Source: Dyadobacter alkalitolerans DSM 23607
GTDB taxonomy: Bacteria; Bacteroidota; Bacteroidia; Cytophagales; Spirosomataceae
NCBI RefSeq assembly: GCF_000428845.1
Contig: NZ_AUAS01000015.1
Coordinates: 62,001-126,000, forward strand
Length of the DNA stretch: 64,000 nt
Direction: 5' to 3'
Shown: in pieces, positions 3,534 to 48,459 of the stretch
Layout of the letters: every line of letters begins with the position of its first letter
How positions within the stretch are numbered: the stretch's first letter is position 1
Notes under the pieces: generated by a model
The model's input: the letters and a program-made list of their open reading frames with translations, nothing else
Database searches by the model: none
Told to the model about the DNA's origin: nothing
Position numbers and translations under genes: made by a program

Positions 3534-3860
3534 TTAGTCGTCCATTTCGTCCAGAAAGTTGTTATAAGCCCTTACCAGCTCCTGGTGTGCCCTGGTATTT
3601 TTTTGTAAAAGCGCCAGGGCCACCCCTTTGCGATAAATTTCCTCAGCCTTTTCCACATCTTCATTACCAGCAAAAAATGAACCAGCGTGATAGTATGTGG
3701 CCAGGTAATCGGGATGCTCGTTTAAAAGGATATCAAAGAAATGCGCAGCTTTCGCCGGGTCAAACTTGGCATACTCGATGGCAAGGGCATAAACATTGAA
3801 CGGATCGGCAGGATCCTCTTCGTAAAAGCTGATCAGATTGTTGAGTAAAGTGGTATTCAT
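3534..3860 (-). CDS. Small tetratricopeptide-repeat protein
   Basis: 108 aa made almost wholly of TPR-type helix pairs. There are roughly two and a half repeats, with the spaced A-x-x-Y, A-x-x-F and A-E-E-I-Y-R-K-G patterns typical of the fold (a clear repeat at about 60-85). It has no signal peptide and no other domain. Such small TPR proteins are usually protein-interaction modules; no partner is evident from the neighbours, a hypothetical gene on the same strand and the divergent etfBA operon. Confidence 0.7.
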   Translation of the reverse strand: MNTTLLNNLISFYEEDPADPFNVYALAIEYAKFDPAKAAHFFDILLNEHPDYLATYYHAGSFFAGNEDVEKAEEIYRKGVALALLQKNTRAHQELVRAYNNFLDEMDD

Positions 3861-3955
3861 TATGGATTATTATGCTTGCATACTATATAAGATTTCCCTT
3901 TATTTGCCCGGACAAAGTTATATTCATACCAGGCAATAATTCTAAATAAAAGCTC

Positions 3956-4693
3956 ATGAAAATACTCGTTTGTATATCCAATGTGCCCGATACAACCGCT
4001 AAGATAACATTTACGGACAACGACACCAGACTTAATAAAACCGGCATTCAATACATAATTGGTCCATATGACGATTACGCACTGGCCAGGGGCGTTGAAT
4101 TAAAAGAACAATCCGGAGGAACATTAACCGTGCTGCACGTAGGCGAAGCCGACGCCGATCCACAGATCCGCAAAGCACTCGCAATCGGTGCCGACGATGC
4201 GATCCGGGTGAATGCCGATCCCCTCGACTCTTACTTCGTGGCCGTTCAGATCGCAGCTGTTGCTAAGCAAAACAATTACGACCTGATCCTGATGGGTCGC
4301 GAATCGATTGATTATAACAGTGGCGTTGTCCATGGTCTGGTAGGTGAAATGTTGGGAATCGCTTCCTACTCCCCCGTCATGAAGCTGGATATTGCAGACG
4401 GTTCAGCTACGATCAGCCGTGAAATTGACGGAGGAAAGGAAATCTTGAAAGCACCTTTGCCGCTCGTTCTCGGCTGCCAGGAACCGATTGCAGAATGGAA
4501 AATCCCGAATATGCGTGGCATTATGACGGCCCGTACCAAGCCGTTAACCGTGGTTGAACCTGTGTCCGTGGACGAAATGACCGTGCCTGAAAAATATTTC
4601 CTGCCTGCCCCGAAAGGCGCATGCAAAATGATCCCGGCCAGCGAGGCCGGAACATTGATCCGCCTTTTGCAGACAGAAGCAAAAGTGTTGTGA
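3956..4693 (+). CDS. etfB: Electron transfer flavoprotein, beta subunit
   Basis: 245 aa, the usual length for EtfB/FixA. It starts M-K-I-L-V-C-I-S-N-V-P-D-T, matching the family opening, and has the AMP/nucleotide-binding segment around residues 115-135 (G-R-E-S-I-D-Y-N-S-G). EtfB pairs with EtfA to carry electrons from acyl-CoA and other flavin dehydrogenases to the quinone pool via ETF:quinone oxidoreductase. etfA follows 36 bp downstream in the same operon. No dehydrogenase gene is adjacent, so its electron donor is not shown here. Confidence 0.93.
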   Translation: MKILVCISNVPDTTAKITFTDNDTRLNKTGIQYIIGPYDDYALARGVELKEQSGGTLTVLHVGEADADPQIRKALAIGADDAIRVNADPLDSYFVAVQIAAVAKQNNYDLILMGRESIDYNSGVVHGLVGEMLGIASYSPVMKLDIADGSATISREIDGGKEILKAPLPLVLGCQEPIAEWKIPNMRGIMTARTKPLTVVEPVSVDEMTVPEKYFLPAPKGACKMIPASEAGTLIRLLQTEAKVL

Positions 4694-4729
4694 TCTTTTG
4701 AAACAATCATTAATTAAAACAGAAAGAAA

Positions 4730-5701
4730 ATGTCAGTCCTTATATATGTAGAACTGGACAATGGTTCTATCAAAAAAACATCGCTGGAAGCAGTGGCTTA
4801 CGGCGCAAAAGTGGCGGAGAAAACGGGTGATAAAGCGGTGGTGCTGGCCATTGGCAAGGCGGATGCGTCTGCATTGGAAATTGCCGGAAACTATGGCGCT
4901 GTCAAAGTCCTGCATGCCTCGGATGAAAAACTATCGCACGAAAACAGCCTTGCCTATGCGGATGCATTGGCGCAGGCGGCCGGGCAGGAAGGCAGCAAAA
5001 TCATCATTCTTTCCAAATCCGGCTTAGGCGATGCCATGGCGGCCCGTGCTGCGGCCAAGTTGAAAGCGGGAGTCGTCTCCGGCGTTACAGCTTTGCCTGA
5101 GATCAATGGTTCATTTAAAGTAACACGCGGGATTTTTACAGGAAAAGCGTTTGCTACAACCGAATTGAAATCAGATGTAAAAATCCTGGTAGTCAAAAAG
5201 AATGTCATCGAGATCAATGAGGATGATGTCGCTTCCGCCAATGCGGTTGTGGAAACATTCTCCCCGCAATTGCGTGATGCTGACTTCAAGGCGTCCGTTG
5301 TGAATGTTGAGAAAGCTAATTCTGAACTGTCTCTTACCGAGGCACAGATTATCGTTTCCGGCGGTCGGGGTATGAAAGGGCCTGAGCATTGGCAGCCGCT
5401 GGTGGACCTTGCGAAGGCGCTGGGTGCTGCAACGGGATGTTCAAAGCCCGTTTCGGACCTCGACTGGCGTCCGCATCATGAGCATATAGGCCAAACCGGG
5501 ATTAAAGTTGCACCGAACCTTTACATTGCCTGCGGAATTTCCGGCGCCATCCAGCATCTGGCCGGCGTAAACGGTTCCAAATGCATCGTGGTTATTAATA
5601 AGGATCCCGAAGCTCCGTTCTTCAAGGCGGCTGATTATGGAATCGTCGGCGATGTTTTCGAAATTCTGCCCAAACTGACAGAAGCCGCGAAAAATCTCTA
5701 A
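4730..5701 (+). CDS. etfA: Electron transfer flavoprotein, alpha subunit
   Basis: 323 aa, the standard EtfA length. The C-terminal FAD domain is clear: V-S-G-G-R-G-M-K at about 208-215 and [10 protein letters not shown] at about 265-275, then N-K-D-P-E-A-P-F-F, which contact FAD in the family. It forms the heterodimer with EtfB encoded just upstream. The pair is bifunctional or acyl-CoA-dehydrogenase type; there are no ferredoxin or bifurcation-specific neighbours. Confidence 0.94.
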
Positions 5702-5829
5702 AAAATGCGGTTTCAGGGCATATTGAAATTAATTGTAATAAATACTGATTGGCCGTATTTGAAAAAATAGCTTAAAAATCAGATAATTAAGCCGCTTTAT
5801 TTCCATCCGGCTGTCAATGAGCATATTCT

Positions 5830-5865
5830 TAACCCGTACTTCATTTTTTTATGCAGTACGGGTTA
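5830..5865 (+). terminator. Hairpin after etfA, probable terminator
   Basis: An 11-bp perfect inverted repeat (arms 5830-5840 and 5855-5865) with a T-rich loop, followed by A/T-rich sequence. It lies 130 bp after etfA and directly before the promoter-like box of the next gene. It could alternatively be an operator. Confidence 0.5.
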
Positions 5866-5867
5866 AT

Positions 5868-5875
5868 TATTTTTG
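5868..5875 (+). promoter_or_regulatory. Bacteroidota -7 box (TATTTTTG)
   Basis: An exact match to the TAnnTTTG -7 element of the Bacteroidota primary sigma factor, 69 bp before the likely GTG start of the bifunctional nuclease gene. No convincing -33 element was identified. Confidence 0.4.
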
Positions 5876-5943
5876 CAACTTCGAATACATTTTCAGGCAA
5901 ATTCACCACAACTGTTAACCAAACTTGCGCATTTAGTTTAAAC

Positions 5944-6540
5944 GTGAAAAAAATCAAGTTAGAAATACTCGGGCTGTCTCCAAGCCAATCACAGGCAGGT
6001 TCCTTCGCACTGGTTCTGGGCGAAGAGCTGGGTAACCGCCGCCTGCCCATCATTATTGGTGTGTTCGAAGCACAGGCCATTGCCGTTCAGATAGAAAATA
6101 TTGTCCCAAACCGTCCGATGACGCACGATCTCTTCAAATCGTTCGCGGATGGAATGAATTATACATTGAAAGAAATCGTCATTTCGGACCTGAAAGAAGG
6201 CATATTCTACGCCAAGATCGTCTGCACGGACAATCTCAGGGAAGTGGAAATCGACGCGCGTCCTTCCGACGCCATCGCCATCGGCTTACGGTTCGACATT
6301 CCTATTTTCACTTACGAGGCCATACTTTCAGAAGCAGGCATCGTGTCGAGCTCTTTAACAGAGGATGAAGAAGACGAGGAAGATGGTGTAAAAGAAACGT
6401 TGGGAACAACGGGATCATCCAAAGACCAGCTGCGCGACCTTACATTCGACGAGTTACAGCGCATGCTCGATGACGCACTTTCCAAAGAGGATTACGAAAA
6501 AGCTGCCAGCATCCGCGACGAAATGGGCCGGAGAAACTAG
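5944..6540 (+). CDS. Bifunctional nuclease (BFN/DUF151) domain protein with C-terminal UVR motif
   Basis: About 198 aa from the GTG at 5944. Earlier in-frame codons encode a segment without similarity to the family, and the domain itself starts V-K-K-I-K-L-E-I-L-G-L-S. Residues ~1-135 form the BFN/DUF151 fold (G-N-R-R-L-P-I-I-I-G, then D-A-R-P-S-D-A-I-A-I-G-L-R), described in some organisms as a nuclease for DNA and RNA. An acidic linker follows, then a UVR (UvrB/UvrC) motif, L-x-x-A-L-S-K-E-D-Y-E-K-A-A-x-I-R-D-E. The BFN-UVR arrangement is normal for Bacteroidota. It lies between etfA and ftsX without operon coupling. Confidence 0.82.
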   Translation: MKKIKLEILGLSPSQSQAGSFALVLGEELGNRRLPIIIGVFEAQAIAVQIENIVPNRPMTHDLFKSFADGMNYTLKEIVISDLKEGIFYAKIVCTDNLREVEIDARPSDAIAIGLRFDIPIFTYEAILSEAGIVSSSLTEDEEDEEDGVKETLGTTGSSKDQLRDLTFDELQRMLDDALSKEDYEKAASIRDEMGRRN

Positions 6541-6612
6541 TCTGCGCCGTTTTGTTAAAGTTAAAAATAGTTAACAAACCGGCCATTCCTGTCCTTATGC
6601 CATTATAATGCT

Positions 6613-6620
6613 TATTTTTG
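6613..6620 (+). promoter_or_regulatory. Bacteroidota -7 box upstream of ftsX
   Basis: TATTTTTG matches TAnnTTTG and lies 54 bp before the ftsX start, in the 133-bp gap after the nuclease gene. It is the likely promoter of the ftsX-DUF3098-uppP-truB-ribF operon. Confidence 0.45.
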
Positions 6621-6673
6621 CCAACGTTCATTCCAGAGTCTGGACCAACTGCTAAGCAAAACCTTACGCTCTT

Positions 6674-7552
6674 ATGCCTAAAAAAAAGAAGATTGGAAGT
6701 TATCCCAATGCAATGATTGTAATGAGCCTCACGGCTGCATTGTTCCTGATCGGTTTTTGCGGGCTGCTGGTGATCCAATCCAAAAAACTGGTTTCCATTA
6801 TCCGTGAAAATATTGAGGTCCGCGTATTCCTGAACAAAGAAGAAACTCAGGCGGGCCAGGATTCCATATTAAAAGTAATACAGGCAAAACCATTTGTTCT
6901 TGCATCTACGGAAGTAAAGCCGATCACGTTTGTCTCCAAAGAAGAAGCGGCCAAAGAATTTATTGAAGGCACAAAAGAGGATTTCGTAACTTTTTTAGGA
7001 GAAAATCCTTTGCGTGACAGTTATCGTGTAAAAATCCAGGAAGACTATTTCGAAGAAGCCAAATTACAGGCGATCAAGAAGGAACTGGAACAGATTAAAG
7101 GCGTTTACGAGGTCGTTTATCAGGAAGATCTGGCAGATAACATTAATCGTAACGTCACCAAAATCTACGTGGTTCTGGCTAGCTTTGCACTGATCATGCT
7201 GATCATCATCGTATTGCTCGTTAACAACACCATCCGCCTTGCTATCTATTCCCAGCGTTTTCTCATAAGGAGTATGCAGCTCGTGGGAGCGACTAATGGC
7301 TTTATCCAGCGTCCTTATGTTGTGCGCGGCGCCATTCAGGGCCTAATCGGCGGCGTTTTAGCCGGGGCATTATTGGTTGGCTTACAACAGCTTGCAGTTC
7401 GCAATGTCGAAGGATTAGGCATGTTGCAGGAGTATGACAAGATTATTATCCTGGTGGCTTCTGTTCTTATTCTTGGTATTTTAATCGGCATAGCCAGCAC
7501 TTACCAATCGCTTACGCGCTATCTGAGAATGGCCCTGGATGACCTCTACTGA
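6674..7552 (+). CDS. ftsX: Cell division ABC transporter permease FtsX
   Basis: 292 aa with the FtsX topology. There is one N-terminal membrane segment (about 15-35), a periplasmic loop containing the conserved F-V-S-K-E-E-A and G-E-N-P-L-R-D-S-Y motifs (about 95-125), then three membrane segments from ~170 to the end. FtsX with the ATPase FtsE relays division signals to periplasmic peptidoglycan hydrolases. ftsE is not in the window, which is usual in Bacteroidota. First gene of the operon leading to DUF3098, uppP, truB and ribF. Confidence 0.92.
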   Translation: MPKKKKIGSYPNAMIVMSLTAALFLIGFCGLLVIQSKKLVSIIRENIEVRVFLNKEETQAGQDSILKVIQAKPFVLASTEVKPITFVSKEEAAKEFIEGTKEDFVTFLGENPLRDSYRVKIQEDYFEEAKLQAIKKELEQIKGVYEVVYQEDLADNINRNVTKIYVVLASFALIMLIIIVLLVNNTIRLAIYSQRFLIRSMQLVGATNGFIQRPYVVRGAIQGLIGGVLAGALLVGLQQLAVRNVEGLGMLQEYDKIIILVASVLILGILIGIASTYQSLTRYLRMALDDLY

Positions 7553-7605
7553 GGCATTCTTTTCAAAAAATATTACCGTTCAGATTATAGTAAATCGCAA
7601 AACTG

Positions 7606-7821
7606 ATGAACAACACAAAAAACGAACTACCATTTTCGACATCGAACTACACTACGATGTTAATCGGCATTGCATTGATCCTTGCCGGATTCCTGATCAT
7701 GACATTCGACAGCACGGAATTCGGTTTCGGCTTTCTGGGATTGACTTTGGGCCCGCTGGTGACGATTAGCGGCTTTATCATCGAGTTTTGGGCGATTCTA
7801 CGTAAACCCCGTAATTCATGA
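7606..7821 (+). CDS. DUF3098 small membrane protein
   Basis: 71 aa with two predicted membrane helices (about 18-36 and 40-62) separated by the F-D-S-T-E-F-G-F-G turn. This matches DUF3098, a Bacteroidota family found between ftsX and uppP. The function is unknown; the position implies a role at the cell envelope or division site. Its stop overlaps the uppP start by 4 bp, so the two are translationally coupled. Confidence 0.82.
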
Positions 7822-8597
7822 GTATTTGGCAAGCCATTATTTTAGCAATTGTTGAAGGGATTACCGAGTTTTTGCCCGTTTCTTCTACCGGCCATATGAT
7901 CATCGCCTCTTCTTTCATGGGGATCAGTCATTTGGAATTCACTAAAATGTTCACGGTTAATATCCAGTTTGGTGCGATATTATCCGTTCTGGTGCTTTAC
8001 TGGAAGCGTTTTTTCCAGACCACAGATTTCTATTTCAAATTATTTGTAGCGTTTCTTCCGGCCGCTGTCATCGGGTTTTTACTCAATGATTTTATTGATG
8101 CCATGCTGGAAAACGTTGTGGTGGTTGCCGTTTCACTGCTTGTAGGCGGGATCATATTGATCTTCATCGACCGCATTGCCAATGATAACACCCGCGAAAG
8201 GGAGATTTCCTATTTCGATGCGCTAAAAATCGGTTTTTTTCAATGCATAGCCATGATCCCGGGTGTTTCGAGATCAGCTTCCACCATCATCGGCGGAATG
8301 TTGCAGGGGCTTTCGCGCAAGCAGGCAGCGGAATTCAGCTTCTTTCTGGCAGTGCCAACCATGGCAGCAGCAGGCGGCTATAAGTTGCTGAAAACCTACG
8401 ACACCATTCAAGCGGAAGACATTAAAGTGCTTTTGATCGGGAATGCAGTTGCATTTGTGGTGGCTATGCTGGCTATCAAGTTCTTTATCAGCTTTTTGAC
8501 CAAATATGGTTTCAAAGTTTTCGGTTATTACCGGATCATTCTCGGGCTGATCCTTTTAGGGTTGCTTGCCTCTGGCTACAAGCTGGACCTTGTCTAA
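7818..8597 (+). CDS. uppP: Undecaprenyl-diphosphatase UppP/BacA
   Basis: 259 aa integral membrane protein. It has both family signatures: [14 protein letters not shown] (about 12-25) and [10 protein letters not shown] (about 155-164), which carry the acidic, Ser and Arg residues of the active site. It dephosphorylates undecaprenyl pyrophosphate to recycle the lipid carrier of peptidoglycan synthesis. The start overlaps the DUF3098 stop by 4 bp. Confidence 0.95.
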
Positions 8598-38094: not shown

Positions 38095-38126
38095 AAGCAC
38101 TTATAAGTTTTACCTTACAAGTGCTT
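38095..38126. repeat. Hairpin at the boundary of the hybrid kinase and the integrase remnant
   Basis: Arms 38095-38107 and 38114-38126 pair over 13 bp with one mismatch (loop 38108-38113). It marks the point where the integrase similarity begins and may be a terminator or part of an old recombination end. Confidence 0.4.
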
Positions 38127-38763
38127 TCGGACAACCGGGATTTGTACCCATTCTCCAAAAACCGTTACACCATTCCAGCTGGAAGCAATACCAAAAAAGC
38201 CCTAACCAAAGCCGAAGTATTAAAGATCATGGAATACCAGTGTGCACCCGGCATGGAGCAACGAAGCCGAAACCTATGGGTATTTTCCTATTTATGCAAT
38301 GGGATGAATATCAATGATATCTGTCGATTGAAATGGGAGGATATTCAGTCTGACAAGTTGCCTTATGTTAGGCAGAAGACCGCCAGGAGCAGAAAGAGCA
38401 ACCAAACCCGTATTAAGGTTACGCTGTTCCCCGAAACGCTGGCAATCATAGAAAGGTGGGCAGGCACAGACCGACACCCCAAAAAACACATTTTCCCATT
38501 CCTTGAAAATGATATGCCGGTTTTAAGAGAGCGGATTATCATCAGCCAGGTCATTAAGATCACCAATCAATATATGAGAGGGATTGCCAAAGAGCTTGAA
38601 ATCGAAAGTGACGTTAATACGTATAGCGCCAGGCACTCTTTCGCAACAATCCTTCTTCAATCAGAAGCACCACTTGCATTCATTAGCCAGTCGCTTGGTC
38701 ACACTTCAATTTCCACCACGGAAAGCTATGGGTAGTTTTGATGATGAAAAAAAAAATATCTAA
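38121..38763 (+). pseudogene. Tyrosine recombinase (integrase) remnant
   Basis: Only the catalytic half of a Bacteroidota-type phage/ICE integrase remains. Recognisable parts: Y-P-F-S-K-N-R-Y-T-I-P linker, the catalytic Arg region L-C-N-G-M-N-I-N-D-I-C-R-L-K-W, Y-S-A-R-H-S-F-A-T (His-x-x-Arg box variant) and L-G-H-T-S-I-S-T-T-E-S-Y with the nucleophilic Tyr. The N-terminal arm-binding and SAM-like domains are absent. Two bases are missing just after the Tyr codon (38729), so translation stops, although the next frame continues with the expected G-S-F-D-D-E. A scar of an integrated element. Confidence 0.85.
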
Positions 38764-39396: not shown

Positions 39397-39831
39397 TTAC
39401 CATTTACCAATGCTGCCAGATCTAACGCATTCGTTGCAAATGCCTTCCAGCAACAGCCGGGATTGTTGAACGCGGCCAATTGAGGCTATCTGCTGGATGT
39501 AGGTTTCGGGAAGGGTTGGAAGCGCAGTAATGCCTTCACAACTGCTGCATTTAAAATGTGGGGTAAGTATCCCTTCCTGTTTTGTTTTTGCTTGCCGGAA
39601 ATGAAACTGGGCAACACCTTCTGCATCAACAAGTCTTGTAAGCAGGTTCGCACTAACCAGGTCGAGCAGCGTCCGGTACAAACTCACCCGGTCAATCTCA
39701 TAGTTAAGCAAGCATTGCAAGCGCCCATGGGACAGTGATTTGTGCTCCCGCAGGAAAACGTCCAGAACGGCAATGCGGTTGGGCGTTGGACGCACCTTGC
39801 TTTTAATCAAAAGCTTTTTTACCTGGGCCAT
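39397..39831 (-). CDS. Fur-family repressor, probably zinc-type (Zur)
   Basis: 144 aa. The winged-helix N-terminal part (about 1-80) has the P-T-P-N-R-I-A-V-L-D-V-F and Y-E-I-D-R-V-S-L-Y-R-T-L-L-D-L recognition helix of Fur proteins. The dimerisation part has structural-zinc cysteines C-S-S-C (~94-97) and C-N-E-C (~133-136) and the H-F-H/H-F-K metal residues. Located at the end of a locus with histidine-rich lipoproteins and a TonB receptor, it most likely controls that locus through the palindromes at 44755-44808. Zinc specificity is inferred. Confidence 0.85.
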   Translation of the reverse strand: MAQVKKLLIKSKVRPTPNRIAVLDVFLREHKSLSHGRLQCLLNYEIDRVSLYRTLLDLVSANLLTRLVDAEGVAQFHFRQAKTKQEGILTPHFKCSSCEGITALPTLPETYIQQIASIGRVQQSRLLLEGICNECVRSGSIGKW

Positions 39832-39869
39832 AAAAAAGTGATGAAGTAAGCCAGCCTACTTTAAAAGCC

Positions 39870-39962
39870 GGCAAGTTGCTTGCGGGTATGGTAAAATGCT
39901 TGTGGACATTGGTATTTTTAGCGCCCTTGTCCCATGTGATTTGTTTTTTGGATTTATTGGGC
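39870..39962 (-). pseudogene. Relic of a DUF4625 lipoprotein gene
   Basis: The minus strand encodes Q-I-T-W-D-K-G-A-K-N-T-N-V-H-K-H-F-T-I-P, nearly the same as E-I-T-W-D-Q-Y-K-G-L-K-N-T-N-V-H-K-H-F in the intact gene at 40556-41539. There is no start codon or surrounding open frame, so this is a fragment left by duplication and decay, or recombination, of the paralogous lipoprotein genes. Confidence 0.55.
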
Positions 39963-39989
39963 GAACAAGGGCATGTTACAGCCTGGATG

Positions 39990-40463
39990 CTATTGGATCT
40001 TGATGCTAATGCCCCTGATCGTCTGCCATCCTTCCTTGTCTGTCAGGCGGATCATGAAGTGGTAGTCGCCTGGGTCAATGCCCGCAGGGACCTTGATTGT
40101 CTGGCTCGCTTCAAATCTTTGCTGGCTGGGGTCAATGTCAAAGCTTTTGATCAAAAGGAAAGGATTGACTGGTTTCTTGACCGGATCCATATTGCAATCA
40201 CTTACTTCTGTACTATGGGTGTGGTGATCGAAATTGTGATGGATATCCACACTATAAGAGCCCAGTGCGATATTGTCAGAGAATGTTGCCTTGAAGGTGA
40301 ATGCTTCGCCTCGTTTAAGGGTGCTGCACTGAATGGGGAAAGTGCCTGGGGCTTCCGCCTCAATGACAGGATAATCGGTATCTATTGCGGGCTCATCTCT
40401 ATCGCAACCAACAGCGGCTAATGCAATCACTGCTAACAGAATAAATTGTCGGAGTTGTTTCAT
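39990..40463 (-). CDS. DUF4625-type lipoprotein (third copy)
   Basis: 157 aa from the ATG at 40463. Signal peptide ending L-A-A-V-G-C, so a lipoprotein. The body is one Ig-like beta domain of the DUF4625 type (F-T-F-K-A-T-F-S-D-N-I-A-L-G-S-Y-S-V-D-I) carrying a histidine run, I-H-H-N-F-D-H-H-T-H, that could bind metal ions, and the closing G-D-Y-H-F-M-I-R-L-T-D. Last gene of the receptor-lipoprotein operon. Confidence 0.75.
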   Translation of the reverse strand: MKQLRQFILLAVIALAAVGCDRDEPAIDTDYPVIEAEAPGTFPIQCSTLKRGEAFTFKATFSDNIALGSYSVDIHHNFDHHTHSTEVSDCNMDPVKKPVNPFLLIKSFDIDPSQQRFEASQTIKVPAGIDPGDYHFMIRLTDKEGWQTIRGISIKIQ

Positions 40464-40555
40464 GTTGTTTTTAAGAATGGACCGGTGCATGGCTCACCGG
40501 CCCGGCGGTTTTTAGTTGTGGTTGATAATCAAATTACCATTGGTGATGGACAACG

Positions 40556-41539
40556 TTAATTGTAATCGATTCCAAAGGGGATTGCCTTATGGATCGTCTG
40601 GTTGGTGGTCACATTCTTATAGATCACGACCAGATTGTAATCCCCGCTTTCCCAGGCCTTACCACCACTGATCGCATTCTTCGTTGGTGCATTGTTGTCC
40701 TTCTCAGCTCCAATGATCAAATCAGGAATGTTACGAATGACCGTATAGGTTTCCATATCAAATTCTGAATTGCCAAAGTCCTGAACGGTTTTCTCATCCT
40801 TATGCTCATGTACATCATATACAATGGCTTTGCTCAGGTCAACTTCCTCAATAGTCTGCGGGTTGTAGTTTGCCGACTTCTTGATCAGTAGCAGATACAG
40901 CTTCCCATCCCCTTTCACAAAAGAAATATTGGCCTGTACCTGAATGGTATCCCCTTTTTTGTAGCGCTCGGTGGGGAAACTATCTTTATCAGAATGATAG
41001 TCATACATCGGGTTCCAGTTTTTATGCATCCATAACCCTGTAAACATGGGCCTTACCGGAAGACTTTCCCGGGTGTAGATTTCAAAGTCCCGCTTCACTT
41101 CAAGCCTGGAACCGTTCTCATCGACAACAGTCACCACAAGCTCATACTTGCCTTCGACAGCATCTTTGGGAAGGTTGAAATGCTTGTGAACATTCGTATT
41201 CTTTAAGCCCTTATACTGGTCCCAGGTAATCTCATGTTTCCAGGGTTTAGTGTAAGTTTCTCCTTCTTTGGGCAAGATACCGACTTTGACTGTATCAATT
41301 TTATCAACCGCTAAAATGTCAGCTTCAAAGTGGAAATCTTCGCCAATTACACCAATACCAGCATTACCCAGTCCCAGTTCCAGGTTTTCCAGAGTTGGTT
41401 TTGGAAGCTCGGGTTCAGGCTTGGGTTCTGGCTCAGGATCGTTGTTATCACAAGCCGCCAGGGTCAGCATGATCATGAGAAGTGCTGAAAGAAGTACGGA
41501 TAGGCTTTTGGGCTGGCGCTTAACTAAATTGTTTTTCAT
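40556..41539 (-). CDS. DUF4625-type lipoprotein (second copy)
   Basis: About 327 aa from the ATG at 41539, chosen because it lies 19 bp after the stop of the upstream gene. Signal peptide ending L-T-L-A-A-C, then a Pro/Glu-rich spacer (P-E-P-E-P-K-P-E-P-E) that would lift the domain from the membrane. An Ig-like DUF4625 domain (about 55-170) contains N-T-N-V-H-K-H-F, and a C-terminal ~150-residue part contains V-Y-D-V-H-E-H-K-D-E. Two His-rich loops support metal or metallophore binding (inference). Confidence 0.75.
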   Translation of the reverse strand: MKNNLVKRQPKSLSVLLSALLMIMLTLAACDNNDPEPEPKPEPELPKPTLENLELGLGNAGIGVIGEDFHFEADILAVDKIDTVKVGILPKEGETYTKPWKHEITWDQYKGLKNTNVHKHFNLPKDAVEGKYELVVTVVDENGSRLEVKRDFEIYTRESLPVRPMFTGLWMHKNWNPMYDYHSDKDSFPTERYKKGDTIQVQANISFVKGDGKLYLLLIKKSANYNPQTIEEVDLSKAIVYDVHEHKDEKTVQDFGNSEFDMETYTVIRNIPDLIIGAEKDNNAPTKNAISGGKAWESGDYNLVVIYKNVTTNQTIHKAIPFGIDYN

Positions 41540-41558
41540 GGCTAATAGTAAGCTCGGT

Positions 41559-42266
41559 TTATTTGTCAAAGTGTTCTTCAAATTCATTTTCTTTTCCAGC
41601 CTGGTCAACTACCTTTAAATGCACATGGTAGTGGCCCACTGGCGCTGCGGTGATATCGACATGCTTATGAAACTCAAAGGCCGTTTGACCTACCATGGCA
41701 GCATCTTTGAATTCAAATTCCTTTTCCCATTTGTCCCCATGGACTTCCACAGTTACTGATGCGATTTTGTTGGGTGCTGCAATAGCTGCTTCCAGGTGCA
41801 GTCCTTTTCCGGCATCTTCCACTTCAACGGCAAAGCCAGTAAGTGCAGGCAGTGTCGGGTCTTTGATCACTTCCAGCTCCGAGTCGATCTCTGCTTTGTT
41901 ACCATTCTTATCAAAAACAGTCATATGCAGGTGGTAATCTCCCAGTGCGGCACTGGCAGGAACATCAATATGCTCATGCAGTTCTGCATTTTTAAGTCCC
42001 GAAAGACCAGTTGTGTAAACCGTATCCAGCTCCCAGCCACTTCCATTCTCAGGGTGGATTTCCAGTTGCACGCGGTCGATGTCGCCTGGTGCTACGATCT
42101 GCGCCTCGATATGAAAGTCGCTGCCCGCCTGGGCTTGTTTGTTGTTACCCGACCCGATTTCAACATTCGAGATCGTTGGTGCGGCCACGTCTACATCATC
42201 ATCGTCGTTACAGGAAGCGAAAAGTGCCCCGGCCAATAGCAGGGCAAGCATTGATTTGATTTTCAT
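41559..42266 (-). CDS. DUF4625-type lipoprotein with two domains (first copy)
   Basis: 235 aa. Signal peptide ends L-F-A-S-C (lipobox), followed by N-D-D-D-D. Two tandem Ig-like DUF4625 repeats (about 30-130 and 135-232), each ending with histidine motifs: A-E-L-H-E-H-I-D-V-P with D-Y-H-L-H-M, and F-E-F-H-K-H-V-D-I with H-Y-H-V-H-L. The regular H-x-H pattern on adjacent strands suggests a metal-binding surface. It lies 39 bp after the TonB receptor gene and probably is its surface or periplasmic partner. Confidence 0.8.
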   Translation of the reverse strand: MKIKSMLALLLAGALFASCNDDDDVDVAAPTISNVEIGSGNNKQAQAGSDFHIEAQIVAPGDIDRVQLEIHPENGSGWELDTVYTTGLSGLKNAELHEHIDVPASAALGDYHLHMTVFDKNGNKAEIDSELEVIKDPTLPALTGFAVEVEDAGKGLHLEAAIAAPNKIASVTVEVHGDKWEKEFEFKDAAMVGQTAFEFHKHVDITAAPVGHYHVHLKVVDQAGKENEFEEHFDK

Positions 42267-42305
42267 TGTTTTGGATTTATGGTGAGTAATAGAATTTGCA
42301 TGAAA

Positions 42306-44717
42306 TTAACTTTGGGCTTTTGCTTTGAAGGCAAAAGGAATTTTAACGGCCAGCACGACATTGCGGCCTGCTTCGGGCAGACCAATCAGACGGTAAAAGC
42401 TGGTATGGTTTAAATAGCGCTTGTTCAGCACATTTTGTACTTGCAGGCTAACATTCATCAGTTGCTGGCCGATTTTCAGGCTTCCGCCCGCTGAAAAGTT
42501 AAAGACCTGATAAGCAGGCGTTGGCCGCTCAGGGGGCACAATCCGGTTTTGGCTGGCCGAAAGCCGGCAGTCGATGGTAAAGTAAGCGCTGGTCAGAGGC
42601 CCCTCCCACTGCGGCTCATAGGTCAGGCTCACAAGCGCAGATGGCGGCGGCGCGAAAGGCAAGCCGTAGCCCCGCTTGGCCCCGGAAAGCTGTTTGCTGA
42701 AAAGATATTCAGCTGCAAGCCCTGCTTTCCAGCTTTTTAAAAAGCTGTATGAGACCTGCAACTCCGAGCCGTAGCGCATCACCCTGCTCTGCGCGTAGTT
42801 GAAAACCTGGTTACCAGCACCATAGAAATAATCATGTTGGGCGGTAGGGTTTAGAAATATGTAGTTAGGAAAATAATTGAAGAACGGCGTGAGCTGCGCA
42901 GTGAGCTTTTCACTATTAACCCCTACGCCAAGATCTAATTGATACGATTTTTCGGCTGAAAGTGAAGGATCGCCTTTTTCATACCGGAAGTAATGATAAT
43001 TGACCCCGTTTGCGGCCAGCTCTTTGGCTATCGGCATCCGGAAGCCGGTTCCCGCATTCAGTTTCAGAAAGAATTCACCCGGTGTATAATTCAGACCCCC
43101 AGACCAGTTGATACTATTAAATCTGCGCGTAATGGCGTCTGCGCGCGTAAGGTAGGTGGTCGTGCCGCTTTCTGATTGGGTTGTGAACCAATCTTTGTAT
43201 TCCTTAATATCAATGCTTCCATAATCGTACCGGATCGCACCTTGAATGAGAAGCTTTTCATTGACCTTAAATTTATCCAGGATAAAAGCGCCAGCGCTGC
43301 TTTGCGAGAATGCCGGGATCAAGAAGCCCCAGCCACCGATGGTGTTGTGCTGATGCTCTCCGCTTGCACCAATGGTCAGCATGTGCCTGTCTATAAGAAG
43401 CTCATTTTTAACATTGACTGAGAAAACGCTCTTGTCATACTGCCGCTCCAAGGTTTCCGGCGCAGACTGCTCGGATGGATAAACCGGTGGCATGTAGCCA
43501 TGGTTGACATACTGACTGTGCTCCTGACGGAAATTATGCTGATAACCCAGCTCGACATTCAGCCTGTTTTTCCCGTAGCGAAATTCAGTCCGGTTGATCA
43601 CTTTGGTATGTGAAACCTGCTGAGAGGGTAGCTGGATGTCCCTGGATAAACGGTCGTGCAGATCCAGGTCAACGCGCCGCGGCTCCAACCCATGCGCATT
43701 AGCAAAAAAGCCGCTTTTGCTGGATGTATTGCTGATGTAGAATATCGATTCAAACGGCGCTGTAATCCAGCCCGCCCGCAAGTGCAGGTTCCGCTCCTCC
43801 CCTGCCGTATTACGCAGCCTGTTCTTGTAAAGCGCGACCCCATAATCGTAAACAAATATAGAATCCACGGACACACGGTAGTCTCCATACGTTTGCCATG
43901 TCATACGGGCATCAGCAAACAGGCGGTCTTTTCTGCCATACAAATTAAATGAACCACCATACAGACCGTTGTTGCTTTTGGCTGTCAGATCCACGGCTCC
44001 ACCTCCCGAGCCAGAAGCCGGAATTGCTGCTGGTTTAATGTCAATTGCCCCACCAATGGCCTCGGATCCATACAGGAATGCCGATGGGCCTTTGATCACT
44101 TCTACCCTACCCGCTGCAAACTGATCAATTTCTAATGCATGATCAGCGCCCCATTGCTGCCCTTCATGGCGCACGCCGTTCTCGATGACAACCACCTGGT
44201 TAAAGCCAAGTCCACGGATCAAAGGCTTTGAGCCGCCCGAGCCGATACCAATGGTCTTGACGCCCGGCAGCTTTTCAAGCGATTGCATCAGGCTTCCGCC
44301 CAGATTGCGCCTTATATAGTCTGCGCTGACAATATCAACATTTAGTGAAACCTGCTGCTGCCGGAGCTGCTCATAGTTGTCTTTGACTATGACTTCCTTT
44401 AACTGCGCTTCATCGGCTTCCAACACCAAATCTCCAAGTGCGACAGCTTCTGATTTAATGGTTAATGCTTTGGTGATTGGCTTAAAACCCACAAAGGAAA
44501 CCCTCAGGCTGTACCGTCCCTTTTCAACCTGGTTAAAGACAAAAGTGCCGCCTGAATCACTCAGGCTGCTAAGCTCGCCAGGTATTAATGTGATTGTTGC
44601 ACCTATCAGCGGCTGACCAGTAGTGCTAACAACTTTGCCTGACAAGGACTGCCCCATTAGCACCGCCCGCGGCACAAATAGCAATGTCATCAAGCAAACA
44701 AGTACACGTATCTTCAT
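42306..44717 (-). CDS. TonB-dependent outer-membrane receptor with CarboxypepD_reg domain
   Basis: 803 aa from the ATG at 44717, which starts a signal peptide (M-K-I-R-V-L-V-C-L-M-T-L-L-F). A carboxypeptidase-regulatory-like domain follows (about 25-110; G-K-V-V-S-T-T-G-Q-P-L-I-G-A-T), then a plug (~115-235; L-P-G-V-K-T-I-G, P-L-I-R-G-L-G-F-N-Q-V-V) and a 22-strand type barrel to the end. It imports a large ligand energised by TonB. No SusD partner is present, so a metal chelate rather than a glycan is likely; the adjacent Zur-like repressor and His-rich lipoproteins point to zinc or another metal. Confidence 0.88.
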   Translation of the reverse strand: MKIRVLVCLMTLLFVPRAVLMGQSLSGKVVSTTGQPLIGATITLIPGELSSLSDSGGTFVFNQVEKGRYSLRVSFVGFKPITKALTIKSEAVALGDLVLEADEAQLKEVIVKDNYEQLRQQQVSLNVDIVSADYIRRNLGGSLMQSLEKLPGVKTIGIGSGGSKPLIRGLGFNQVVVIENGVRHEGQQWGADHALEIDQFAAGRVEVIKGPSAFLYGSEAIGGAIDIKPAAIPASGSGGGAVDLTAKSNNGLYGGSFNLYGRKDRLFADARMTWQTYGDYRVSVDSIFVYDYGVALYKNRLRNTAGEERNLHLRAGWITAPFESIFYISNTSSKSGFFANAHGLEPRRVDLDLHDRLSRDIQLPSQQVSHTKVINRTEFRYGKNRLNVELGYQHNFRQEHSQYVNHGYMPPVYPSEQSAPETLERQYDKSVFSVNVKNELLIDRHMLTIGASGEHQHNTIGGWGFLIPAFSQSSAGAFILDKFKVNEKLLIQGAIRYDYGSIDIKEYKDWFTTQSESGTTTYLTRADAITRRFNSINWSGGLNYTPGEFFLKLNAGTGFRMPIAKELAANGVNYHYFRYEKGDPSLSAEKSYQLDLGVGVNSEKLTAQLTPFFNYFPNYIFLNPTAQHDYFYGAGNQVFNYAQSRVMRYGSELQVSYSFLKSWKAGLAAEYLFSKQLSGAKRGYGLPFAPPPSALVSLTYEPQWEGPLTSAYFTIDCRLSASQNRIVPPERPTPAYQVFNFSAGGSLKIGQQLMNVSLQVQNVLNKRYLNHTSFYRLIGLPEAGRNVVLAVKIPFAFKAKAQS

Positions 44718-44754
44718 CAAACCAGCTTTCAAGTCGGCATTCGGCCGCCCTACA

Positions 44755-44808
44755 TGAAACAATGTTGCAAATAAAGCTTTGATATTTTTAACCTGCAACC
44801 ATGTTGCA
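44755..44808. promoter_or_regulatory. Two Fur/Zur-box-like palindromes
   Basis: TGCAACCATGTTGCA (44794-44808) is a perfect 6-3-6 palindrome; TGAAACAATGTTGCA (44755-44769) is the same with one arm mismatch. They are 39 bp apart in the divergent gap between the TonB receptor (-) and the peptidase-like gene (+), where a repressor would control both. The Fur-family gene at 39397-39831 is the obvious candidate protein. Confidence 0.65.
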
Positions 44809-44850
44809 ATAATTATTATGGTAGTGGTTACATTTGTCTCTTATTACTCG

Positions 44851-45903
44851 ATGATGAAACACTTTGCAATTCTGTTATTTTTTATCTTAATGGTGAATAT
44901 GTCCACTGGGCTCGCCCAGCGTGCTATGACATTAGACATAGACATAAAGCCCGGCTCGGCTTCCGAGCAGATCCTGACTGTGCGCAGCGGCGCTGATGCT
45001 GCTGAATTACCTGTAAAGGTGATCAAAGGAAAATTGGACGGACCCGTTTTCTCCATCATCGCCGGCATTCATGGCTATGAGTATCCGCCCATCATAGCGG
45101 CCCAGGAGATCATGGCTGAAATTGACCCGGGCAAACTGAAAGGCACACTAATCATTGTTCCTATTGCTAATACAGCTGCCTTCTTTGGAAGGTCCGTTTT
45201 CTATAATCCACTTGATGGGAAGAATCTGAACCGCGTCTTTCCTGGAAAGCCAGATGGAAGTATCTCCGAGCAGCTGGCCCATGCGATTACCATCCAGGTT
45301 ATCCAGCGTTCAACGGTGCTTCTGGATATACATGCGGGTGATGCCAGTGAAGATCTTACGGATTTTATCTGCTACTATGACAATAAGGATACGCCCGGGC
45401 AGACTTCCCAGGCCCGTAAATTGGCTGAGTCCGCAGGTTTTCCATTGATGGTTATATATCCATTCAATCTAAGCAAAACCCAGCCTGCTGAATATGCTTT
45501 CAAGCATGCGACCCAGCAAGGCATTACTGCGCTAAGCATGGAAGCGGGTAAATTAGGAGGTGTTCAAAACAAGTCCGTAGAACAGATTAAGACGGGTATT
45601 TATAATATTCTTGTCGAGCTCGGCATGTATAAAACCAATCGTAAACCTGTCTTAAAACCCGTCGTTCTGAACGGGCAGCATTATATTAAATCGCCTGCGA
45701 AAGGCATATTTTACAGTGACTTGAAAAGTGGTGATCAGGTTGTCAAAAGGCAAAAGATCGGTTATATCACCGACGTCTTTGGAAAACAAATTGCTGATAT
45801 CAATGCAGATCAAAACGGGATCATCCTGTATAAAGTGGGCACTCCACCGGTTAATGAAGGGGAAACATTATTGTGTATTGGATACACTGCTACCGCCAAT
45901 TAA
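44851..45903 (+). CDS. Exported succinylglutamate desuccinylase/aspartoacylase-like zinc hydrolase (M14 type)
   Basis: About 350 aa from the ATG pair at 44851/44854, which begins a signal peptide ending G-L-A-Q. The zinc site of the family is present: G-I-H-G-Y-E (His and Glu ligands, ~70-75) and D-I-H-A-G-D (third ligand, ~168-173), with N-R-V-F-P-G between them. The C-terminal ~80 residues form the small beta domain of AstE/AspA proteins. It would hydrolyse an amide or peptide bond in the periplasm. Shares the palindrome-containing promoter region with the TonB receptor, so it may process the imported ligand (inference). Confidence 0.82.
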   Translation: MMKHFAILLFFILMVNMSTGLAQRAMTLDIDIKPGSASEQILTVRSGADAAELPVKVIKGKLDGPVFSIIAGIHGYEYPPIIAAQEIMAEIDPGKLKGTLIIVPIANTAAFFGRSVFYNPLDGKNLNRVFPGKPDGSISEQLAHAITIQVIQRSTVLLDIHAGDASEDLTDFICYYDNKDTPGQTSQARKLAESAGFPLMVIYPFNLSKTQPAEYAFKHATQQGITALSMEAGKLGGVQNKSVEQIKTGIYNILVELGMYKTNRKPVLKPVVLNGQHYIKSPAKGIFYSDLKSGDQVVKRQKIGYITDVFGKQIADINADQNGIILYKVGTPPVNEGETLLCIGYTATAN

Positions 45904-46980: not shown

Positions 46981-48459
46981 ATGAACTTCCAGTTATCCGA
47001 GCGGATCCCAACGGATAATTTTTATCGGAAGTTGAAAGAATCACTGGATTTGAACTCCATCTCCAAAGAAACCAGGGAGCTTTATGGAAGCACTGGAAAC
47101 CCATCCATAGATCTGGTTGTATTTCGCCCGGCGACCCGGTTTAAGCTAATGCTTGTCGGTTACCTGGAAAATATAACGTTTGATCGCAAACTGGTAGATC
47201 ACTGTTCGGTGTGGGCTATGATATTGACGAGCAGCTGCCCTGGCATTCAACCATCAGCCGGACCAGGCAGCTATATCCGGCTACCGTTTTTGAAGGTTTA
47301 TTCAATAAGGTATTTACTCTGTGTGTTGACAAGGGCATGGTCAGTGGACATACACACGCAATGGACCGCGGCGGCGGCCGTTCAGCACCAGTTAAAGCCA
47401 ATGCTTCAATGGAAAGTCTTGAACTGAAAAGACCTTTTCAATCTGTTGAAGGCGCTTTGAAGCCGTAGATACCAAGAACCAGTAATCACTGCCCCTCCTT
47501 CGACAGCGGGGTTGATAACTGCCCCGCAGCATCATTTGAATCGTGTGAAACATGTTCATGATAAACTGCTTAAAAATCCGGCCGGTGCCAGCGGCGCTTC
47601 TCATGAAAAAGCTCAGTTGTTCAGTAATAAAACGCATTATAATCCGCATGATCCGGATGCTCGTATTTCGGTAAAGCCTGGCAAGGCAAGAAAACTTAAC
47701 TACCACTGCTGCACGGAGTAGATTCAGGGCAAGGCGTCATTAGCCATATACAGGCCGACTTTGCAGACGGGAGAGATAGTCAGTATCTTCCAGCAATGAC
47801 TCTACAAATTCAAAACCGACTAAAAGCGAATGAGCTTCGCATGACAGAGTTGTTGGCAGATGCCGGATACTCAAATGGTTTTAATTATGGGTACTAATTA
47901 AGAAACATCACACCATGGATTCCTGTTTTTGGCAAGTACAAACCAGAACGGGGATGGGTTACCTATAACAGGAAAGAAGATGTTCTTACCTGTACCATGG
48001 AAGACAATTCCTTTTAAAGGCTTTGATCGAACCTCTGATAGAAAGCCAATAAAAAACTACCGGGCTTCGAAAAGAGATTGCATCCCCTGTGTTCTAAAAG
48101 AATCCTGCACGCCTAAGTCCCAGTTTAAAAGAATTTTTACGACAGCCTATGAAGATTATTACCATAGAGCTTATGAAAGACAACTAAGCAGACGAGGGAA
48201 ACAGATGAAACAAGTCCGGCAAAGTACGGTAGAGCCGGTCTTTAGAAGCCTGGTCCATCATTACGGATTAAGTAAAATCAATGTTTTGAGAATAACCGCA
48301 GCACATAAGGTGATGCTGATGGCAACGACCTGCTTCAACCTCAAAAAGTACCTCAAAATATTTAAAAGGAAATTGACAAATAGTGCAGCAATAGAGACCA
48401 TGGTTCGCTTAACGGGCGCATTTTTGAAGCCCTCGATTGCTTTTACGCTAAACTTTTAG
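46981..48459 (+). pseudogene. Degenerate IS1182-family transposase
   Basis: Pieces of one IS1182-type transposase in order but in different frames: P-T-D-N-F-Y-R-K-L-K-E-S-L-D (46981-), F-K-L-M-L-V-G-Y-L-E-N-I, G-Y-D-I-D-E-Q-L-P-W-H-S-T-I-S-R-T (47211-47468), H-Y-N-P-H-D-P-D-A-R-I-S-V-K-P-G-K (47512-), and the C-terminal part Y-H-R-A-Y-E-R-Q-L-S-R-R-G-K-Q-M-K (47929-48459). A small internal deletion near 47205 and at least three frameshifts make it inactive. I could not define the terminal inverted repeats. Confidence 0.85.

Follow-up and report, generated by a model that had tools for sequence, protein, structure and literature searches.

A probable Zur-controlled zinc-acquisition locus with DUF4625 lipoproteins in Dyadobacter alkalitolerans

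The genome of Dyadobacter alkalitolerans DSM 23607 (6.29 Mb, 99.97% complete) carries a cluster of genes for a TonB-dependent receptor and lipoproteins of the DUF4625 family, located within a stretch of 64,000 nucleotides that was analysed as a whole and is referred to below as the window (contig NZ_AUAS01000015.1, positions 62,001–126,000). In window coordinates, the receptor gene (42306..44717, minus strand, 803 amino acids (aa)) is followed on the same strand by three lipoprotein genes, D3 (41559..42266, 235 aa, two DUF4625 domains, rich in H-x-H motifs), D2 (40556..41539, 327 aa, a DUF4625 domain and a second, beta-rich C-terminal part) and D1 (39990..40463, 157 aa, a single domain), then by the relic of another DUF4625 gene (39832..39989, about 25 recognisable codons) and by a Fur-family gene (39397..39831). 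A gene for an exported hydrolase of the AstE/AspA type (44854..45903, plus strand, 349 aa) diverges from this run. The likely starts of the receptor (44717), the hydrolase (44854), D2 (41539) and D1 (40463) are internal to the listed open reading frames (ORFs); they were chosen on the basis of signal peptides and relatives, and the reading frames were checked. Profile searches bore out the gene content given in the original prediction, namely a Fur-family gene, three DUF4625 lipoproteins, a relic, a TonB receptor without SusD, and a divergent exported hydrolase. The paired H-x-H motifs mentioned there were also recovered, as LHEH, YHLH, FHKH and YHVH in D3 and as HHTH in D1, and the minus strand of the relic encodes ITWDKGAKNTNVHKHFTIPA, which matches EITWDQYKGLKNTNVHKHFNLP of D2.

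The palindrome that had been noticed in the divergent gap is present twice between the divergent starts. Box 1, TGCAACCATGTTGCA (44794..44808), is an exact copy of TGCAAC-N3-GTTGCA located 45 bp upstream of the hydrolase start and 76 bp upstream of that of the receptor, and box 2, TGAAACAATGTTGCA (44755..44769), with one mismatch, lies 39 bp from box 1 and 37 bp before the receptor start. The sequence TAnnTTTG is the –7 box of Bacteroidota; such an element was found on the plus strand at 44829, 21 bp beyond box 1, which would place this box over the upstream promoter element of the hydrolase gene, and none was found on the minus strand in 44700–44860. By count within the window the palindrome was at chance level, its four matches at up to two mismatches being reached in 59 of 100 shuffles; its significance therefore rests on comparative tests. 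All 4096 palindromes of the type hexamer-N3-reverse complement were scored in the 1000 bp preceding 98 distinct DUF4625 operons (110 loci minus three without a usable BLAST match, L111–L113, and nine with identical upstream regions; one of the regions is 504 bp long). TGCAAC ranked first of 4096 at every threshold, with 10 of 98 regions containing an exact copy, 69 a copy with up to one mismatch, and 85 with up to two. The runners-up at one mismatch were the near-variant TGCAAT (41/98) and AAAAAT (30/98), and at two mismatches TTTTTT (67/98), while the reversed control ACGTTG scored 0, 0 and 2 at the exact, one-mismatch and two-mismatch levels. A shorter scan of 700 bp detected the one-mismatch box in 29 of the 98 regions; 1000 bp was preferred since the box and the first core gene are often separated by a short leader gene, and at this length exact boxes beside the receptor in loci L086 and L091 are still missed. 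Paired boxes 38–39 bp apart were observed in many DUF4625 operons, including that of the window.

A second test, independent of DUF4625, was centred on a Fur-family gene located elsewhere in the same genome (C6:97520 in our numbering), hereafter the Zur-like gene. A match to it at an E-value of 1e-12 was present in 110 of 295 Bacteroidia genomes, and the same 4096 palindromes were scored in about 3.4 kb around each of the 30 best matches. TGCAAC again came first, both as exact copies (7/30, next 2) and with up to one mismatch (12/30, followed by TGCATT with 8). A third scan covered the 300 bp preceding each of the 30 best MerC-family genes; here the box was first of 4096 at up to one mismatch, being found in 9/30 as exact copies (next 1), in 18/30 at up to one mismatch (next 3) and in 22/30 at up to two (next 15). 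For L323, L327 and L329 a neighbouring or over-long ORF had been used in the first MerC scan; when the count was repeated by motif, the box at one mismatch preceded 18 of the 23 CxxHC-type genes and none of the six SPCC-type genes, with L323 left unclassed. Across 14 chosen genomes, WTGCAACNNNGTTGCAW occurred 136 times at up to one mismatch, compared to 26 occurrences of the reversed pattern.

Individual box sites were inspected in six regions of the D. alkalitolerans genome and in 40 further stretches, picked by hand among the matches listed, from which no regulon frequency was derived. A gene for a lipoprotein resembling the zinc metallochaperone AztD is preceded in this genome by two one-mismatch boxes 40 bp apart (L024), and AztD-like genes are also boxed in D. 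crusticola (L247) and Belliella (L252, exact). The gene of a CobW GTPase is preceded by two exact boxes 38 bp apart in D. tibetensis (L276), and in Echinicola (L272) a CobW GTPase gene stands behind a MerC-like gene with two boxes, beside a DUF4625 locus. Both CobW GTPases and ZnuD are well-known targets of Zur. The sites in L248, L249, L253, L255 and L267 are intragenic and appear to be chance occurrences. An operator common to the Zur-like gene and zinc genes, as expected for a Zur regulon, was thus found at the level of sequence, and we propose that TGCAAC-N3-GTTGCA is a Zur box of Bacteroidota.

The conservation of the neighbourhood was surveyed in the best 80 of 301 DUF4625 loci, from named organisms of 13 genera; the loci were ranked by likeness to D1, so the counts lean towards D1-type operons, and two of those counted as Flavobacterium bear the titles [Flexibacter] and Flavobacteriaceae. 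The closest named relatives in this survey are Dyadobacter flavalbus, D. crusticola and D. sediminis. The original prediction was to be abandoned if DUF4625 genes occurred mainly in unrelated contexts; this was not so in the surveyed loci, since a receptor gene lies within 4 kb of DUF4625 in all 80. The box was found upstream in 59 of them at up to one mismatch and in 75 at up to two, and a Fur-family gene anywhere in the examined stretch in only six. AztD-like genes adjoin DUF4625 in 58 of the 80 loci, comprising all 47 of Flavobacterium, 8 of 16 of Pedobacter, 1 of 4 of Dyadobacter, the single loci of Rufibacter and Segetibacter, and none of the 11 others. A strain of Flavobacterium johnsoniae is among the carriers of the receptor operon with DUF4625 and an AztD-like gene (L155). 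At two further loci, L090 and L109, an isolated D2 gene likewise has an exact box. The DUF4625 family itself is patchy, with matches over the cut-off in 10 of 200 genomes of the bacterial family and 18 of 395 of the phylum. A tyrosine-recombinase-like ORF (38121–38735) and, on the opposite flank, apparent transposase fragments (46981–48459), both recognised by eye from translations, agree with this patchy distribution. In several other DUF4625 loci (L094, L098, L107, L142 and L158 among them) a small exported leader protein, mostly of 94–129 aa, is encoded before the first core gene; it usually has a CxxC motif, histidines and a C-terminal RAPP, RPPP or KGPP. None was seen in the window locus, and a similar leader protein (L268:3604–3951) had no Pfam match.

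AztD has two crystallographic zinc sites, formed by His124, His167 and His218 and by His99, His102, Asp104 and His408, and in Paracoccus it hands zinc to the solute-binding protein AztC, as described in the available portion of PMC6689063. The AztD-like protein of D. alkalitolerans (C16:53116, L024) matches AztD chains in PDB (6cmk, E-value 1.8e-19), and the published ligands of both sites are kept, as H103, H106, D108, H127, H170/H171, H220 and the C-terminal H402, in 62 of 62 aligned sequences (the L024 protein and 61 from DUF4625 loci). Its score against the curated AztD model NF038015 is well under the cut-off (97.1 versus 400 bits), and it differs from AztD (6cmk, 6ck1) in being a lipoprotein whose cysteine is followed by acid-rich positions and in that no ZnuA-family receiver was found in the genome; we take AztC to belong to the ZnuA family.

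The window receptor consists of a plug and a barrel with an extra carboxypeptidase-regulatory-like N-terminal domain. Its best match among solved structures is ZnuD, an outer-membrane TonB receptor of zinc piracy (4rdr, E-value 7.6e-19), followed by OprC (4.3e-11) and, lower down, by colicin I, B12 and heme receptors. ZnuD is under Zur control. The window receptor differs from ZnuD in its extra domain and in adjoining DUF4625 lipoproteins, and it scores 126.3 bits against the curated ZnuD model NF038289, for which the cut-off is 950. The receptor family alone does not fix the metal; it is the box and its other targets that point to zinc.

Altogether, these computational data argue that the locus is a Zur-controlled zinc-acquisition operon of the outer membrane, to which we assign a probability of about 0.75. 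The earlier proposal of a metal-acquisition locus with zinc as the metal thus gains support from the presence of the box at zinc-type genes, from the AztD-like partners and from the co-occurrence with the receptor. A number of results weigh on the other side. The box at one mismatch is weak in Pedobacter (5/16, rising to 14/16 at two mismatches) and is missing from the single Filimonas locus (found at two mismatches) and, even at two, from the single Segetibacter locus; it also lies within 1 kb upstream of 41 of 576 other ORFs in the 80 loci, sites shared with the operon included. Around Zur-like genes it holds only rank 40 of 4096 at two mismatches (14/30), and it is absent at one mismatch from 18 of the 30 loci. 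Its occurrences hardly differ from those of the reversed control in Chitinophaga rhizophila (13 versus 12) and Rufibacter (2 versus 2). With the Zur model of NCBIfam (cut-off 167), the C6:97520 protein reaches 32.9 bits, which does not exceed the 33 bits obtained with Fur and PerR models. Among NCBIfam receptor models, a heme receptor model (141.8 bits) and a hemoglobin/transferrin receptor model (127.3) surpass that of ZnuD (126.3), all far below their cut-offs. Finally, the signal for surface export is weak in the D1 class, only 24 of 92 members having at least two acidic residues at positions +2 to +5 after the lipid cysteine.

Membership of D1, D2 and D3 in DUF4625 (PF15418) is clear, with 133.3, 79.3 and 109.8 bits versus a Pfam cut-off of 27, and their four domains are the sole matches found in the genome. 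Sequences were picked for alignment from 89, 80 and 29 listed for D1, D2 and D3, giving alignments of 52, 28 and 20 sequences, respectively, those of the window included. In mature numbering, the invariant residues of D1 are H56, H62, H64, H116, C27 and C71; the invariant histidines are H41, H89 and H91 in D2, and H34, H79, H81, H139, H158, H182, H184 and H196 in D3. Each DUF4625 domain has single histidines plus one H-x-H motif. These histidines are candidate metal ligands, and metal binding by DUF4625 is suggested by their invariance and by the genomic context. The AlphaFold models are confident beta-sandwiches for both D1 (predicted local distance difference test (pLDDT) 92, predicted template modelling (pTM) score 0.83) and D2 (pLDDT 92). 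A function could not be derived from either fold: Foldseek and VIA-align searches with D1 returned only generic beta-sandwich proteins (best E-value 8.3e-05, best Z 9.3), and D2 gave scattered multi-domain matches with template modelling scores under 0.35. A phmmer search revealed no solved-structure relative of DUF4625 below an E-value of 0.7, and no papers naming DUF4625 were found in the open-licence literature, a scope that leaves out most subscription papers and preprints.

Signals for the surface export of Bacteroidota lipoproteins, C-X-K-(D/E)2-X and SDDFE, are reported in the accessible text of PMC5080379. The acidic residues after the lipid cysteine of the window proteins (CDRDE in D1, CDNND in D2 and CNDDD in D3, with 3, 2 and 3 acids at +2 to +5, respectively) resemble these signals. 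In the zinc-acquisition reading, the DUF4625 lipoproteins are probably flipped to the cell surface. Across the loci, at least two acids at these positions are found in 61 of 81 D2, 23 of 30 D3 and 53 of 61 AztD-like proteins. The same distribution leaves room for the strongest alternative, in which the locus serves zinc acquisition but the DUF4625 lipoproteins are periplasmic and buffer or chaperone zinc after its entry: the acid-rich pattern usual in the other three classes is not usual in D1, and AztD, in the portion of PMC6689063 mentioned above, passes its zinc to AztC. We consider this version possible, although rather unlikely, since the acid-rich positions do resemble the published signals and no ZnuA-family receiver of such a chaperone was found in the genome.

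The search for Fur-family genes gave three in this genome: C6:111968 with 105 bits, C6:97520 with 41 bits, and the window gene, which matches PF01475 with 24 bits (cut-off 23.1) and keeps the structural CxxC...CxxC pairs. It reads GILTPHFKCSSC at the site where the C6:97520 paralogue reads HHHDHIHFKCSEC, and the His-rich sensing motif before the first CxxC was not found in it (GILTPHFKC versus HHHDHIHFKC in the paralogue). The claim that the window gene encodes Zur was not upheld, given the missing sensing motif and the rarity of Fur-family genes at the surveyed loci (6/80); the C6:97520 paralogue is the likelier regulator, and the window gene may be a paralogue with changed or lost sensing. 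The region of the paralogue (C6:93000–106000, L020, positions 3843–7897) comprises the Zur-like gene, the MerC-like gene, a second receptor of the ZnuD/heme type, a 202-aa lipoprotein without Pfam or NCBIfam matches, and two boxes, one between C6:97520 and the divergent MerC-like gene and the other before the second receptor; the gene of the lipoprotein, a neighbour of this receptor, ends next to the regulator. The best solved matches of the C6:97520 protein, though weak, are the zinc regulators 2o03 (6.5e-06) and 4mtd (2.4e-04), followed by Fur (3.8e-04) and PerR. Flanked by boxes, this gene probably encodes the main Zur. It is improbable that the window paralogue controls the operon instead and answers another signal: although it lies just behind the last lipoprotein gene, with a 68% relative at the same place in D. 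crusticola, the box is present in 59 of the 80 loci and a Fur-family gene in six, and its sensing motif is missing.

The possibility that the receptor imports heme or another iron source, with the lipoproteins as heme-binding partners, appears highly improbable. HmuY/HmuR-like pairs consist of a lipoprotein and a receptor without SusD and serve heme, and the arrangement in the window resembles them; the top NCBIfam model of the receptor is likewise a heme/hemoglobin one (141.8 versus 126.3 bits for ZnuD). However, no heme model reaches its cut-off, the best solved match is ZnuD, the box is common to AztD-like, CobW, MerC-like and Zur-like genes, and AztD-like genes adjoin DUF4625 in 58 of 80 loci. 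That copper, nickel or cobalt is the metal instead of zinc is very unlikely, since all published zinc ligands are kept in the AztD-like proteins and the same box is found at CobW GTPases and the Zur-like regulator, even if OprC, a copper receptor, ranks second among the solved matches, the genome has a heavy-metal P-type ATPase operon with two weaker paired boxes, and histidine clusters bind copper and nickel too.

The hydrolase belongs to the AstE/AspA family (PF24827, 90.7 bits versus a cut-off of 25). Its residues H98, E101, H185 and E255 (numbering of the long ORF) are conserved at 95% or more in 10 sequences; we take the two histidines and the first glutamate to be metal ligands and the remaining glutamate to be catalytic. 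The protein is rare: at an E-value of 1e-30 it was found in 12 of 295 Bacteroidia genomes and 7 of 150 genomes of the family, including that of D. alkalitolerans. The assumption that it is a fixed part of the locus did not hold, as it adjoins DUF4625 in only two further Dyadobacter species, D. flavalbus and D. sediminis. Among 18 hydrolase loci beyond the window, obtained by protein search, four have a one-mismatch box, including the two Dyadobacter copies next to DUF4625, and the other 14 are without a box. Of two other genomes of the genus, neither with a DUF4625 match, one contains a distant hydrolase copy with its own exact box (L300), and in the other a broken copy belongs to a cluster that opens with an exact box (L301). 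The Chitinophaga japonensis copy (L266), which has a one-mismatch box, is not an unbiased case, because it was located through its box. With boxed copies in some genomes and 14 copies without a box, the hydrolase recurs in the boxed gene set but is not an obligatory part of it.

The zinc-acquisition reading would work as follows. At low zinc, the main Zur, probably the product of C6:97520, would leave the paired palindromes between the divergent promoters, and the cell would then make the ZnuD-like TonB receptor and the three DUF4625 lipoproteins, predicted to be immunoglobulin-like beta-sandwiches with conserved histidines. On the surface, the lipoproteins would bind zinc or a zinc chelate and pass this cargo to the receptor. 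The AztD-like zinc-binding lipoprotein, encoded by a separate boxed gene, may join the same relay, and the divergent hydrolase, also located beside a box, could conceivably trim a zinc-bearing ligand.

Import across the inner membrane calls for a further component. The ZnuA family and ZIP had no match in the genome, while 11 and 8 of 14 control genomes, respectively, were matched. The MerC-like gene beside C6:97520 has an exact box 46 bp before it, and of the 60 hits over the MerC cut-off in the 295 genomes of Bacteroidia, 27 have a Zur-like match within 5 kb, compared to a rough chance estimate of 0.3% each. MerC-like proteins are relatives of a mercury importer. Since ZnuA and ZIP were not found, one could hypothesise that the boxed MerC-like protein is the inner-membrane zinc importer. 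We tentatively suggest a Bacteroidota-specific route, in which surface DUF4625 and AztD-like lipoproteins would feed a ZnuD-like receptor and, in genomes that lack ZnuABC and ZIP, a small Zur-boxed MerC-like protein would move zinc through the inner membrane; as a whole this scheme is doubtful. Other candidates for the inner-membrane step are a boxed P-type ATPase accompanied by a receptor (L025, with weaker boxes), a DUF3526 ATP-binding cassette (ABC) system and FtsX-type ABC systems.

In the L025 cluster (C10, 2624–7157 of the locus), two weaker paired boxes are followed by the genes of a heavy-metal P-type ATPase, a 106-aa exported protein rich in Cys and His, and a further TonB receptor. 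Homologues of this receptor and of the small protein adjoin a DUF4625 locus and a Zur-like gene in Chitinophaga japonensis (L179). A box precedes the DUF3526 ABC-2 permease operon of D. alkalitolerans (C2, L022, 6820–10428), which has a look-alike in L244. Similar boxed ABC-2 operons are located behind a CxxC leader gene in L268 and L279, and in L285 an AstE-like hydrolase gene directly follows an apparently similar permease.

Several other genes were also found next to the box or the regulator. A pyridine nucleotide-disulphide oxidoreductase, a thioredoxin-reductase-like enzyme with flavin adenine dinucleotide, is boxed in at least five genomes of four genera (L023, L254, L261, L274 and L278), its identity resting on Pfam for L023 and on N-terminal likeness for the others. 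An SCO1/SenC-like gene adjoins the Zur-like gene in several Bacteroidia (L228, L230, L231, L232, L257 and L260), being recognised by Pfam in L257 and by eye elsewhere. In D. crusticola (C19, L246, 3639–6408), six boxes at up to one mismatch lie within 2.8 kb, around two receptor-like ORFs. An exact box precedes the gene of a 137-aa lipoprotein in D. alkalitolerans (C9, L021, 6586–7030), and proteins that look similar are likewise encoded behind an exact box in D. crusticola (L245) and in a further Dyadobacter genome (L301).

Among described systems, XusA/XusB of Bacteroides, a siderophore-binding lipoprotein with a TonB receptor in the consulted part of PMC12574912, is similar, by description only, in that a lipoprotein binds the metal source imported by the receptor; its cargo, in contrast, is an iron siderophore. 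The same part of that source covers Vibrio ZnuABC and ZrgABCDE. The window locus differs from the Zur regulons of Proteobacteria in its operator, TTGCAAC-N3-GTTGCAA, often paired at 38–39 bp, and in its boxed genes, which include DUF4625, MerC-like and AstE-like genes, with no ZnuA or ZIP found in the genome. The likeness lies in a zinc repressor of the Fur family whose targets include TonB receptors and CobW GTPases, as is typical of proteobacterial Zur regulons. No description of a Bacteroidota Zur box or of this operon was found in the open-licence literature on zinc and Zur in Bacteroidota (MerC in connection with Zur was not searched for), and the available portion of PMC10710014 notes a fur/zur gene in Chryseobacterium and nothing further.

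Zinc uptake by Bacteroidota thus looks poorly described in the open-licence literature. What is new at the locus is the presence of lipoproteins of unknown kind beside a receptor of known kind, which offers a testable first function for a family without one. Moreover, the operator and the list of boxed genes would allow zinc genes to be predicted, the missing inner-membrane importer among them, in Flavobacterium, Pedobacter, Chitinophaga, Dyadobacter and their relatives.

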